A stretch of DNA of 64,000 nt, from positions 1,178,001 to 1,242,000 of the forward strand of contig OX637623.1 of assembly GCA_951802195.1 (NCBI GenBank). Direction: 5' to 3'. The stretch comes from Tausonia pullulans (taxonomy: Eukaryota; Basidiomycota; Tremellomycetes; Cystofilobasidiales; Mrakiaceae). The position numbers were made by a program, and so were the translations under genes. Positions 3,051 to 56,050 of this stretch are shown here, piece by piece (position 1 is the stretch's first letter; every line of letters starts with the position of its first letter). The notes beneath the pieces are model-generated. The model searched no databases and was not told where the DNA came from. It saw only the letters and a program-made list of their open reading frames with translations.

Positions 3051-6000
3051 TCAGCGACAACGACAAGTTCCCGTCGACGCCCTCCGGACCAGCTCCATCT
3101 CCGCCGGCAGACGACGACCTTCAATGCCCGCCTGCCTCGCCCACTGCCAAGAGGCATTTGGTATTCCGCGAGCCGCCGATCCTCTTTCGGACGTTGGGAG
3201 CGCAAGCGGAAAGATACCGGACAGGGAGGACAAGGGGGGCTGTGCTTCCTCAAAGGGGGGAATGTTGAGCATCGAAGTGATGTCAGTGGGTAAGGGATCG
3301 GCAGTGGTAGGTTGAGGAACTGCGGAGGTGGCGGCCTCAGCGTTGTAGGCCTCGAGAACGGTCGACCAGGCCGCGCGGTTCTGCATGCAATGGGTGGCAT
3401 AGGGCTGGAGCTCTATGGTCATCGAGCCACCGTTTAGTCAGAAAAAGCTTTAGAGGGAAGAAGAGAGCAAGAAACTTACGGGGCATCACATTCGCGACAG
3501 CATCAAACAGCGGCTGGACAAAGAGGTCAATGAACCCAACTTGGGTTTTCGCTTGAAGCGCACCGCCGGTCCAACGGATGACCGAGACGGGGAGTTGGAG
3601 ACCGAGCTCAAGGTCGGCTTGCTCGGTCCACTCTCTGAGGAGGACGCTCGACCAGTGCTTCGAAATCTCGTGCGGGCGGGTCTGGTGAGATTTGGAGGAT
3701 GGTGATCATCAGCGCGCGGATCCAACAAAGACAGCAAAAGAGAGGACCCACCGGGTTGCTGATGTCGGCACATTTAATGAGCGCCTGACATAGCATCGTC
3801 CGATCCTCATTGTCCTGATCCTGATTCGGCTCCTTCGAACCTTCATACTCCACGAACCGCTTAATGAGCGACCTCATCTTAGCAATCCATGAAAAGTGCC
3901 TCGCCATGTCTGTCGCAAGGACGGTCGCAACGAGCACCTGCCGGAAGTCGGCCCATAGCGGTAAAGGCATCTGCTGGCAGGAGAAGGGGAGGAGGAAACC
4001 GAGGCTGTGTCGGCGGAGAAGGGCCGTGAGAAGGTGGCAATGGAAGTTCTCGAGCGTCGATATGTCTGAGTAGACCTTGGAGATTGGAGTCTGGGCGTTC
4101 TTCTATTGTTGAAGGCAAGGCCAACAAAGGTGAGAGTAAGCGTTGCGTGATCCAAATAGAAAGGCCGAGACATGGGCGAACGAACCATGAAGACGTTGGA
4201 GAGACCCGGGTGCGCGACGTCATGGCCGATGGCAGCAACGAGGAGCGCGAGCACATCCTGCGGGCGTAGAAGGTCCCTCGCCCGATTTCTCGGCTCCATC
4301 GGCCTCCTCCACGGGGCGTTTGGCCGCCTGCCTCCCGTCTCCAGAACCAGCGGTCCCATCTCCTCGAAATCCGGGACGAGCCGAAGCGCCACAAGAAATT
4401 GATAGGTCGCTTGGAGGACGTCAACGGCGTGAATGTAGTTATGATACGGGTTTGGGGCGTGGTACGCTGCTCGAACGGCGAGAAGAAAGCTGTCGATTCG
4501 ATCGAGGGAGATATCGAGTTCCCAGAGACCCTCGGAAGCAAGCGCAGCGCGGAAGAGGAGGGAGACGCAAGCGGCTTGGTCAGGAGGGGAGAGGGTGTGG
4601 GGCGCAAATTTCCAGTGGGAGCAAAGGTCGAGAAGTTCACGCGCTCGGGCGGGCTCAGTGCCGGGATGAAAGCTGCAGGACATTGAGAATCAGCAGTGCT
4701 GATAAGCCTGCTTCCTCGAGCTGGAATACTCACCTCGGATCGTTGCTAATATTGAGGGCAATCTGAGTCTGGACGTGCAGCTCACTGAGGAGTTCTGCCA
4801 GATCCATCGCGTCATCGTCCACTAACGCCTGCGCTTCTGTTTCGCCCATTGACGGGCGAAATGGAGGAGAGGAAACGCTTTCGAGCGCAAACGCCCTTGC
4901 GATCCCGCCCGTGTCAACGCTCGCACGACGACGGCGGCGACGCCCCGATCCCGCTTCGAAAGAGACAGGAGGAGCAGAGTCTCTGGCTGCTAGGGACGCC
5001 CTTCGAGCCATGATTGGGGATGTAGGCTGCTCCTTGTCCGACCAGACAGAGAACGCCTTGCGGACGCATTCCTTGGGGTCTCGGTCATGCTGGGCAGCAG
5101 GCGGCGAAGGAGAGGAATATGAGGTGATCGATGTCAGGGCGGTGGAGGTAAGTTCGCATGCCGAGCGGTCGTCGTCGACCAGGTCGCCGAACTCGAGAGC
5201 CGGGGAGGTGGGTGTTGAGAAGGGTGGGGAGGAAGGTCGGGAAACGGAGAGAAAGGTCAAAGTGGAGGAGGGGAAGGAGCAATGTGAGGAAGGAGGGATC
5301 GAGGGGGTGGCTTCGGATGCGGGAGGCGGAGAGGCTGAAGGAAGGGACTGAGAAGTGGGAATAGTTGGTGAGACGCTTAAGAGGAAGGGAGAAGTGGTCG
5401 TCGCGACGTACAGCGAGAACCTCGTAAAGAGAGTCCAGCTTGTATGGTGAGGTGAGAACGAGGTTCGCGCCGGCGTCTAGGCATCGCTTCGTGACCTCAT
5501 TCGGAAGTTCCAAGTCGGACGTCGAGTAGGCTGCGTGCGATTCCGATCAGCCAACAGCAAGCAAGCGCGCATCGTCGTTGAACACTCACCAACCAAGACG
5601 ACCTTTCGCTTTCTCTCCGACAGAACCTTCGATGCGAGTCGAAGCTCGGCTAGAGCGTGGCAGGCGGTCTCGAGGGCCGGAGTCACGATGGCCTTGCTGG
5701 CTTCCTTATTGCCAAAGAGGTCGAAGAGAATAGAGGGCGTGTGTCCCGACTCATGGACGAGCTGTTCCGAAACGGCCTCGGGGGCTTCGTCGAGCGGGAC
5801 GAGGACCAGCAGCGCGTCAATCGCCGGCTTCGTCACCACCATTGACGACGACGACGAAGGGAAGGCGAAGGTCGAGTGGATGGGTGAGGAGGGCAAGGCG
5901 GAGGTGGGCGACTCCGGCGAGAGTGGAAGATCAGTCGCCCAGGCGAGCAGCGCAGGCAGTCGAGACACTGACGCGGGCGATCGGAGAGTCCTTACTTGTT

Positions 6001-7067
6001 GGTTTAGAGGTCAGACAGAAAAGTGTCAGTCAGAAAATTATAGTGAAATAGGCTCTTCCCGGAAGCACAACCCGCATGGTTGACCACGGCGAACTTGCAT
6101 GAATTCGACGACGAGCTAGCTGCCCTGAACCAAGATTCAGGTCGCGGATGGCACACAGACAGGAACGAAAAAAGTGGATAGGGTGTCGGAGCCACTAGGG
6201 AACCCGCTCGTCCCGCTTCGCCTTTCTACGTCGTCGGCGGACGGTAGAAGGAAGCAAGGAGGTTTGGCTCGACATCGCGTGCTTTCTTTTCCTTCCGGAC
6301 CGAAAGGATACCGATCGCAAGGAAAGTCTCCGGTAATCCCAGATCCGCTTGAGGGAAGAGAGGAGAGGGTGAGCACCCTCCCTCCCCTCCCGCTCTCGGA
6401 GGCTCCTTCCTCCTCGCTCGCCAAACCAAAATGCTCCAATCTTATGAGAAGAAAAGTACTGAGCTAACTTACCAAGTATCTCCTGCTCTCGAAGAGCCTC
6501 CGTCAGGCGCCGGACAGCCGCGCCATCAGGACCATCATTGCTGATGGCGGTGTTGTCCTCCCCATGTGGCCACGCAAGTGATGCCTGCTTTATTGTTCGC
6601 TCCGGCCCCTCGGCTCGAATGTGAAACGAGTCTATTGTTTGCATCTGTGCGAGCTTAGATCGAGCGCTGCTGCTGCTACTGCCGGTGACCGCCGTGTCCT
6701 GGGTCTGATCGGGGCCAGTAGAAAGGCTACCGACGGGACTGGTCGCGCCGCCGAGTGCCGCAAGGGGAATTGGCGCGTTCGTCGACAACGACCGGCGCTG
6801 GTGCTCTCGTCGACGAGACGAGAGAGAAGACGGTTCGTGTGCAGAGGACAAGGTGCTGCGATTGACGCTGGTGCTGATAAGGGTAAGGCCATTGCTGCCG
6901 GCAATGGACTGCCGCCGAGGAGGAAAAGGAAGGAACGGCTCCTGAGCGCCGGATGACGCCAGCGAGGAGGAAGAACCTGAGGGGAGGAGCAGGACCGCCG
7001 AGCCGAGACGGATCTTGGCCGTCGTCGTTGTTGGGGCTCGTGCGAGCTCAAGCTTAGCTGTCGACAT
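3051..7067 (-). CDS. Class I 3',5'-cyclic nucleotide phosphodiesterase with receiver-like N-terminal domain
   Basis: This enzyme hydrolyses cAMP (possibly cGMP) to the 5'-monophosphate and should oppose the cAMP-PKA pathway. The catalytic half shows the class I metal-binding signatures in order: PNPYHNYIHAVDV, IGHDVAHPGLSN, TLENFHCHLL, KCADISNP, and after an intron the GLPVS...KTQVGFIDLFVQPL segment. The start ATG (7067) opens a Ser/Thr-rich N-terminus holding RRQS (residues 51-54); a second strong site, RRAS, lies just before the catalytic domain. Both fit the PKA consensus. Between them is a domain shaped like a bacterial receiver: a VVLVGAYSTSD strand, a helix, then LDAGANLVLTSPYKLDSL. The usual Thr and Lys of receivers are replaced, so it should not be phosphorylated there. 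Estimated length is about 1,000 residues. The intron between exon 1 (ends about 6472) and the next firm exon (about 5996) is unusually long and may hide a small exon. Confidence 0.9.
6072..6119 (-). other. Candidate 48-nt micro-exon of the phosphodiesterase gene
   Basis: This stretch lies within the long first intron of the phosphodiesterase gene. It sits between an AG acceptor and a weak GTTGTG donor, and it keeps reading frame with exon 1 (ending in one base) and the next exon (starting with two). It would encode about 16 residues including SNSCKFAVVNHA, which looks like the first beta strand of a receiver fold. Inclusion is an inference from frame and hydrophobic pattern; retention or skipping cannot be told from DNA alone. 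Confidence 0.35.
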
Positions 7068-53714: not shown

Positions 53715-56050
53715 ATGGAGTACACCCCTACCGTCGTCCCCCACTACGTCCTCTGTGCCGATTGTGGTGTGTAGAGAATGGCGCCGAGGCCGACTGGCGC
53801 GCTGCTATGTCCCACTCCACGTCGGCGCACTCCGCTGACCGAGCTGTCCTGGACGCCTGTGCTTCTCCCCTTGATAGGAACGCCCATTGAGCCCAACTCG
53901 GGTGAGTCTTGATTCTCTTTTGGGAATTACTCTCGCTTCTAGATGGACTCGGCCTGAAATCGTTCTCCCTCCCACCAGCCAACTTGTGCATTGCCTGCCT
54001 TCGCAACACGTCCGTGGTCTTCGTCTCGCGCTTCCTAGGCGTACCCGCCACAATAGCAAAAGGCTGACGATAGGACTCTACCTTTCTTTTGTCAACAGTG
54101 TCGACATCACCGAGGGTATTCCGAAACAGTCCTCCATCAACTTCTGTCGCAACTGCTCGCGCTACCTCTCGCCACCGAGCTCGTGGGTCGGCTGCGAGCT
54201 GGAGAGCCGAGAGCTTCTGAGTATCTGTCTTCGAAAGCTCAAGGTCAGTCCTCGCTTGCTCAAATGGCAACAGGCCGCTTCGGGTGCACGCGAATGATGA
54301 CTGACCGATTCGACGGTGGGGCCCTCTTCCCTCGGTTTGTACCTTCAGGGTCTCGCCAAAGTCCGCCTGATAGATGCTTCGTTCGTCTGGACGGAGCCGC
54401 ACTCGAAGCGTATCCGTGTTAAGCTCTCGATTCAGAAGGAGGTTCGTTTTGGTTCCTCGAGACAGTTACCTCTCGGCGGTCGCCGGGACAGTTCAAGCAA
54501 CCCTACTGACCCTTCACTTGCTCGCCAGGTCTTCACCTCGACCATTCTCCAGCAGATCTTCGAGGTCGAATACATCGTCTCGCACGGACAGTGTCCGGAC
54601 TGCACGCGTCTTGCCGCCAAGAACATGTGGAAGGCCTCGGTTCAGGTCCGACAGAAGGTCAACCACAAGCGGACCTTCCTCTTCCTTGAGCAGCTCATTC
54701 TTCGCCACAACGCGCATAAGGACACGGTCTCGATCAAGGAGGCCAAGGACGGTCTCGACTTCTTTTACGTGCAGCGTAATCACGCCATCAAAATGTGCGA
54801 GTTCCTCGCCGCTGTTACGCCTGTCCGGACCAAGGGCTCCGAGCAGCTTCTCTCGACGGACACCCACTCCGGCACTTCGTCGTACAAGTTCACCTACTCC
54901 GTCGAAATTGCGCCGATCTGCAAGGACGATCTCGTCTGCCTTTCGACCAAGCTCGCCCGGTCGCTGAGCAACATCAAGTGAGAGAACAGCTTGCATCTGC
55001 CAAGTTTCATAGGATCATCGCTGACCATCCTCGTTACCTCAGCCCGCTCGCTATCTGCACGCGTATCAGCAATTCCATCCAGCTCATCGACCCGACGACG
55101 CTCCAGGTGGTCGATCTCCCCTCGACCGTCTACTGGCGCGAACCTTTCCCGGCCCTCGCTCAGGTCACTGACCTCATCGAGTTTCTCGTCCTCGACATTG
55201 AACCCTCGGGCCTCGTCCGCGGCAAGCACGCGCTTGCCGATGCCCAGGTCACCTTTGCCAATTCACACAACGCGATTCTCGATTCTGGCGACGGTAGCGG
55301 AGGAGGCGACGGAACGTACCACACGCGAACCCATCTCGGCGCCATCCTCCAGCCCGGGGACACCGTTCTTGGCTACTTCCTCTCGCGCGCCAACTTCAAC
55401 AATGAGGCATACGAGTCGCTTGACGCCGGCCGGATCCCGGATGTTATGCTCGTCAAGAAGACGTACCCGAACCGGCGGAAGAAGAACCGCACGAGGAACT
55501 GGAAGCTCAAGTCGATTGCCATTGAGGCCGAGGACGTCCCGAGCCAGGGCGCCGACAAGGTTCTCGGCCGTGGAGCGCTCGGACGGAGAGGAGGACTTGA
55601 CCAGCAGAAGGTCGAGAAGGACTACGAGATGTTCCTGCGTGAGCTCGAGGAGGACCCGGAGCTTCGCGGATCGATCAACCTTTACAAGGCGGCTCTGGCC
55701 GTCGAGGCGCCGGCAGAGGGAGACGATGTTGCCATGGGTGGTGCTCGCGGTGGCAAGGGCGCGCCGGTGGGCAAGGGCAAGCGGGCTGCTGGTCGCAAGG
55801 CCCAGTTCTCGATGGACATCGAGGGTGGAGACGACGAGTCAGCGGCTGCTCCAGTTGCCGAGGAGACCGACGACGAGGACGACGAGGACTTCCCGGACAT
55901 CGACATCGACGAACTGCTGGGTGAGTTTGTGCACCGTTGACTATCCGTTCCTGGCACTAATCGCATCCCACGATCTTTGCAGACCACTTCGAGGAGATGA
56001 ACGTTGCGGATGAGGCGGGAGGCCCGGAGGTTGATGAGGACGACGAATAA
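53715..56050 (+). CDS. NMD3: 60S ribosomal export protein NMD3
   Basis: This nucleocytoplasmic adaptor binds pre-60S ribosomal subunits and links them to the exportin Crm1. The start MEYTPTVVPHYVLCADCG begins an N-terminal zinc-binding region. Tiny exons add TPIEPNS and NLCIACLRN, then SVDITEGIPKQSSINFCRNC completes the CxxC set. VRLIDASFVWTEPHSKRIRV, then SIQKEVF and STILQQIFEVEYIVSHGQC (a second zinc site, with CPDC), follow in order. VRQKVNHKRTFLFLEQLIL and IKEAKDGLDFFYVQRNHAIK are hallmark segments of the family. The C-terminal half ends in a long acidic tail (DEDDEDFPDIDIDELL) that should include nuclear export and localisation signals, with the last exon ending EVDEDDE and TAA at 56048-56050. 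Start chosen as the first ATG in frame, 519 bases from the NC2-beta start. Confidence 0.95.

Follow-up and report, generated by a model that had tools for sequence, protein, structure and literature searches.

The window analysed here, a stretch of 64,000 nucleotides from the basidiomycete Tausonia pullulans (contig OX637623.1), encodes on its minus strand (3051..7067) a predicted class I cyclic-nucleotide phosphodiesterase (PDE) whose N-terminal domain is very probably a pseudo-receiver, kin to the true receivers and devoid of their phosphorylatable Asp and conserved Lys. Less altered receivers occur at the same place in PDEs of other fungi, which suggests that fungal breakdown of cyclic AMP (cAMP) was once wired to two-component signalling.

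The pseudo-receiver domain and its kinship with true receivers

All elements of a degenerate receiver are found N-terminal to the PDE core, with β-1 at residues 19-29, a long insert, and α-1 to α-5 at residues ~181-373. The putative β-1 (IRLGSAVLLLP, 6981..7013; this and all PDE gene features below lie on the minus strand) aligns with LxVLVLLP of the homologues, and corresponds to β-1 (E13-18) in the predicted model of an orthologue. The insert between β-1 and α-1 (residues ~30-176, 6540..6980) is weakly conserved, and its predicted local distance difference test (pLDDT) values in the orthologue are mostly <50. Both the alignment and the orthologue model place α-1, β-2 and α-2 at residues ~177-217 (5939..6539), split by intron 1 (6472-5995). 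β-3 (DALLVLVPLD, residues 258-267, 5789..5818), a strand in the orthologue model, is followed by α-3 to β-4 (residues 306-339, ending in KVVLVAYSTSD, 5514..5674), interrupted by intron 2 (5589-5531, phase 1). Alignments to 82 true receivers and to the fungal receivers of alignment A4 (see below) locate α-4, β-5 and α-5 at residues 344-373 (NEVTKRCLDAGANLVLTSPYKLDSLYEVLA, 5412..5501). In the orthologue model, β-1 to α-5 follow in order as a (β-α)5 receiver fold. A chance likeness limited to β-4/β-5 was rejected because of this fold and the profile kinship with true receivers.

A preliminary description of this DNA had read a degenerate receiver from two quoted stretches, matched to β-4 to β-5. 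Both are real and lie on the minus strand upstream of the PDE core, and the fold comparison supports that reading; the match holds, except that the domain now appears complete, with β-1 in exon 1. In the quoted VVLVGAYSTSD, the Gly derives from the edge of intron 2, and the spliced protein reads VVLVAYSTSD.

The phosphotransfer residues were compared using A3, a profile of 14 homologous segments (window first, β-1 not included). Aligned with A4, the window VPLD falls on IDLD of the Calcarisporiella protein P0079, and TSP falls on IKP. The position of the phospho-acceptor Asp after β-3 is Pro in 13/14 aligned segments, the window included, and Gln in the other, so that the case for a phosphorylation-dead domain is stronger than had been claimed. 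The acidic pair after β-1 is missing too, the window reading VLLLPSG. At the β-5 Lys position, aligned on Lys144 of P0079 and, in the alignment to true receivers, on their Lys, the window has Ser and the other 13 A3 rows Pro. The conserved Thr had been described as replaced together with this Lys. The loss of Lys stands, while the Thr/Ser site after β-4 may be retained as Ser: the Ser of window AYS lies on a residue that does not vary in A4 (Ser122 of P0079), with a register against true receivers that is uncertain by one residue. The pseudo-receiver assignment is one made by profile comparison; Pfam itself makes no receiver call.

A profile made from 13 homologous segments, with the window left out, matched the window segment at 62.2 bits (E 2e-18, 765 targets), more than expected by chance, as the best of 750 shuffles reached 5.0 bits. 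In profile-profile comparison, A3 matched the 82 true receivers (80 loci and two from the same genome) with a score of 49.6 (probability 94.1, P 1.2e-7), or 46.3 once the window row was removed. The reversed control scored 11.5, and 100 column shuffles gave at most 16.8. The local match spans α-3 to α-5. A forced global alignment placed the LVPL strand on receiver β-1, because the A3 segments do not contain β-1. A search of the PDB with the A3 profile returned nothing of use.

Taken singly, the sequences give weak matches. Alone, the window segment reached 10.8 bits against the true-receiver profile, which is rank 1 of 765 but close to the best shuffle (8.8 bits); the segment of a second T. 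pullulans gene ranked 2 of 765 with 10.4 bits, and 12 of the 15 real segments did not top that shuffle. Pfam finds no receiver in the window protein or segment, even at E<=10. Because the window scores low by itself and has no Pfam receiver, the assignment, drawn as it is from sequence profiles, belongs to the family and not to the window sequence in isolation.

The gene was modelled manually as 8 exons (7067-6473, 5994-5590, 5530-5412, 5347-4734, 4672-4186, 4102-3752, 3681-3480 and 3412-3051) encoding 1044 residues. All introns of this predicted model are GT-AG and one open frame runs throughout, with the junctions inside the pseudo-receiver backed by homologue alignment. The least certain joint is the 3' end of intron 1, which is 478 bp long. 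An alternative acceptor there, which would remove β-2, is disfavoured, as the longer reading aligns with homologues through β-2. The catalytic PDEase_I domain occupies residues 654-933 (about 3387..4446; PF00233 at 205.5 bits, cut-off 24.8, E 1.3e-60) and contains YHNYIH, GHDVAHPG, KCADISNP and QVGFIDLF; judged by this domain and its HD metal-binding motifs, the protein is assigned to the class I cyclic-nucleotide PDEs. The range of 4700..7067 previously given for it is too short, with PDEase_I lying outside. At E<=10, the Pfam scan of the window protein gave PDEase_I alone and no PAS domain.

Relatives and less altered receivers in other fungi

A whole-protein search returned 27 relatives, including animal PDEs, the best being from basidiomycete yeasts. 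The catalytic core gave 487 matches, and ascomycetes were absent from the named proteins among the best 120 of these. When the upstream segment of a Kwoniella orthologue was used, 24 sequences (query included) were found, and PDEase_I is recorded in 23. The segment is present in other basidiomycete PDEs, where the preliminary description had proposed to look for it, both in Tremellomycetes and in Cantharellales. The aligned Tremellomycete segment reads ...EVTVIRHASHLP...VVLVPLSDSP...TTPTAVCFQQDLL...IIAYSANPALS...ACLSAGAAGVLKPPYELDTAELV..., and is recognisable by alignment in Rhizoctonia, Ceratobasidium and Tulasnella. The Cryptococcus neoformans PDE in the set (P0014) also bears the pseudo-receiver. 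Over 13 relatives (12 Tremellomycetes and P0019), mean pairwise identity was 0.51 in β-1, 0.66 in α-1 to α-2, and 0.54 and 0.45 in further receiver parts. The insert had 0.24 and the linkers 0.28 (0.24-0.34 over insert, loop and linkers). The catalytic core reached 0.71.

PDEs of Calcarisporiella, Mortierellales and one Mucorales fungus carry a receiver in which Asp84 and Lys144 are kept in 5/5 aligned A4 rows, and the Asp of all five is, from its aligned position, of the putatively phosphorylatable type. The Calcarisporiella protein P0079 (Calcarisporiellomycota) starts with MDLTRCSILVVDS and contains ILLIDLD and DYLIKPL. Similar proteins come from Mortierellales, such as Actinomortierella P0103 (Mortierellomycota), and from Mucorales (P0131, Mucoromycota). 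PF00072 was matched in 3/5 of these PDEs scanned (17.8 bits for P0079, 11.9 and 14.4 bits) and in 3/43 members of set A2, all below the cut-off of 30.2. The N-terminus of P0079 found 21 PDB sequences at E<=1 (best E 0.00087), of which 18 are named response regulators, CheY or histidine kinases, and the remaining three are RphyB, SenB and LuxO. Its predicted model consists of a receiver followed by the PDE (mean pLDDT 72.8); all 50 VIA rows of the fold comparison with this model were PDEs. Searching with A4 at looser limits added seven receiver-type rows, with Candida Pde2 not among them. Several Mortierella-type gene models begin late, without β-1. In P0116, P0119 and P0114, also of Mortierella type, long inserts break the receiver after β-3, near the phosphorylation loop, and P0116 has a further long insert after β-1.

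Across 123 catalytic-domain rows, 52 match the A3 or A4 profile at E<1e-3 (training rows included) and 71 do not. Of the latter, 52 have <100 residues ahead of the core, and late-starting gene models such as P0118 are among them, so that 71/123 is an upper count of absence. A tree was built from 73 rows, hand-thinned from the 123; 39 are without a match, two of these being animal PDE4. The receiver label requires at least 3 state changes on this tree, and none of 500 shuffles (mean 24.6) gave so low a number. Rows without a match include a Microbotryomycete clade, Wallemia, a clade of mushrooms and both animal rows. The case for common descent of the receivers is based on the A3-A4 profile match, and under common descent these absences would be losses; the tree by itself would fit three gains as well. 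The window protein and its paralogue are sisters (Shimodaira-Hasegawa-like approximate likelihood ratio test, SH-aLRT, 92) beside the Tremellomycetes (93), on long branches.

A second gene copy and a PKA-consensus site

The host genome (23.9 Mb in 21 contigs) holds a second pseudo-receiver PDE gene 133 kb off, outside the window (G000:C4:1046000-1049300; L007, L010). Its PDEase_I domain (C4:1048118-1049213) was the only other one found in the genome, in a search that gives lower bounds. The intron in the receiver segment lies at the same place and in the same phase as in the window gene (GTCG/GTCAGT ... CAG/CCTAC, giving LIV-AYALGSS), and the segment scores 21.8 bits (E 4.7e-6) against the basidiomycete profile. 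The metal-binding motif of this copy reads GHDSAHPG, where the consensus of relatives has GHDVGHPG.

The linker between the pseudo-receiver and the catalytic core contains RRRRASVDTGG (residues 511-521, 4904..4936), with Ser516 as the candidate phosphorylation site and RRASV at residues 513-517. RRxS is the consensus of protein kinase A (PKA). The expression R[RK]x[ST][VI]DxG matched 84/121 PDE N-terminal parts and only twice in 12,100 shuffles, and is absent from all 9 rows recognised by A4. It is strict, as P0009 and P0035 carry RRRSVD yet fail at the final Gly; RRxS[VI]D occurs in 26/26 rows of alignment A1. The motif is kept in basidiomycete PDEs, including rows where no receiver was found, and the second copy has RRASVDTGG at its locus, outside the excerpt counted. 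PKA feedback on PDEs is described for Saccharomyces cerevisiae in a review (PMC6592070), which also cites a paper on PKA-mediated feedback via C. neoformans Pde1.

Comparison with known systems, and alternative explanations

In Dictyostelium RegA, also of the cAMP pathway, a receiver precedes PDEase_I within a single protein; this order is found in the window protein, as a pseudo-receiver, and in the model of P0079. The A4 relatives share the Asp and Lys with RegA. RegA is reported to be activated by phosphotransfer from RdeA to Asp212 (PMC11988041), an Asp that is lacking in the window protein. When eukaryotic GenBank entries were screened for RegA in 2014, Dictyostelia, Acanthamoeba and Naegleria were named, and fungi do not appear in that section of the paper (PMC3906536, section 3.1). 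Animal PDE8 likewise has an N-terminal REC before a class I cAMP PDE, and putative sites for PKA or protein kinase G (PKG) have been reported for it (PMC13095499). Unlike the window protein, with no PAS found in the Pfam scan, PDE8 has a PAS domain between REC and PDE.

A receiver fold without phosphotransfer residues is shared with the pseudo-receivers of fungal Rim15 and of plant pseudo-response regulators (PRRs), as outlined in sections of a 2025 review in which Rim15 is the only fungal pseudo-receiver with published work (PMC12632262). Rim15, which holds most known fungal pseudo-receivers, is a kinase, whereas the output here is a PDE; ascomycete Rim15 has Glu at the Asp position and the window protein Pro. 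Besides Rim15, the domain described here would form another class of pseudo-receivers in fungi. That none of the copies scanned (the window and 43 A2 members) reaches the Pfam receiver cut-off may explain why it was overlooked.

A weak lead concerns ascomycetes. When the P0079 model was compared by Foldseek, Candida albicans Pde2 (6cpu/6cpt) ranked first. It aligned over 579 columns, beyond the catalytic core, whereas most PDE cores give ~350-390. On this model comparison the N-terminal domain of Pde2 may match the receiver, and may be a relic of one in ascomycetes. The lead is weakened by a root mean square deviation of 19.6 and by the 492 columns reached by long-form PDE4B (4wzi), which has no known receiver.

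The preliminary description knew of no fungal counterpart. In the open-access full-text literature, no fungal cAMP PDE was found to be described with a receiver, in a search that did not cover Supplementary Table S4 of PMC8510515, which may list such a fusion; the less degenerate receivers of Calcarisporiella, Mortierellales and Mucorales are, however, counterparts at the level of sequence. In that survey of 670 fungal receivers, the word phosphodiesterase is absent from the main text, which states that a few unclassified fungal response regulators have enzymatic domains (the subject of Table S4), and that Mortierella elongata is rich in unclassified regulators (PMC8510515). A receiver-PDE fusion in fungi is likely, not certainly, novel.

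The explanation we favour, and consider reasonably probable as a whole, is that of a fungal class I, cAMP-type PDE whose N-terminal third is a receiver-derived pseudo-receiver acting as a phosphate-independent module, and with feedback through PKA. RegA, where receiver phosphorylation controls the PDE, serves as the model. The window protein would descend from a RegA-like receiver-PDE fusion. As Asp and Lys are lost, control should be phosphate-independent: with the phosphorelay input gone, the domain would act as a docking or allosteric module setting PDE activity or location, and feedback would now come from PKA, acting by phosphorylation on the serine of the RRxSVD motif conserved in the linker. 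For docking or allosteric control taken alone, we see about even chances. The best match to true receivers includes α4-β5-α5, a face commonly used by bacterial receivers for partners and dimers (PMC8510515). Since α-1 to α-2 is even better conserved in the family, no single face is marked out.

Membership of another flavodoxin-like (β-α)5 family, of B12-binding or flavodoxin type, would make the domain a small-molecule binder that resembles receivers by fold convergence. We regard this as highly improbable: A3 scored 17.0 against B12-binding and 19.4 against flavodoxin domains, near shuffle level, compared with its 49.6 against true receivers (controls from 30 B12-binding and 20 flavodoxin loci, the ten shorter or weaker of 30 flavodoxin loci being left out), and the A4 intermediates retain the receiver Asp and Lys. 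Decay is a more serious rival, if an unlikely one. The domain would then be a former phosphorelay receiver, now functionless and nearing the loss seen in mushroom and Microbotryomycete rows, consistent with the missing key residues and with the absences and state changes on the thinned tree. However, the higher identity of the receiver elements (0.45-0.66) than of the insert, loop and linkers suggests that the fold is under selection, and neither of the two PDE genes found in the genome has lost the pseudo-receiver.

It is also improbable, more so than decay, that the domain is still modified in an atypical manner, at Ser/Thr near β-4 to β-5 or in some other way, and is a direct sensor of a kinase. 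The window does have Ser/Thr near both sites (VAYSTSD, LTSPY), and a Ser after β-4 is common in the family, but the Ser of LTSPY is replaced by Pro in the other 13 A3 rows. Returning to the favoured reading of a phosphate-independent pseudo-receiver, a broader history can be sketched, tentatively and at less than even odds: fungi would have inherited a RegA-type enzyme in which a histidine phosphorelay governs cAMP breakdown; this control may persist in Calcarisporiella, Mortierellales and Mucorales, through a phosphorylatable receiver on the PDE; basidiomycetes would have moved to a pseudo-receiver and PKA site; mushrooms and Microbotryomycetes would have dropped the receiver; and the ascomycete Pde2 N-terminus is perhaps a further relic.

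In fungi, cAMP/PKA and two-component signalling are generally regarded as circuits apart from each other. A receiver on the PDE would, if true, hinge the one directly to the other, and the PDE N-terminus of the much-studied yeast C. neoformans (P0014) gains a testable identity.

A plasmid search gave nothing of use. Pfam searches of neighbouring frames gave nothing in six short ones and no match in four of five long ones; the fifth, at 54780-55937 on the plus strand of the window, is ordinary and contains the OB-fold and SH3 domains of NMD3.
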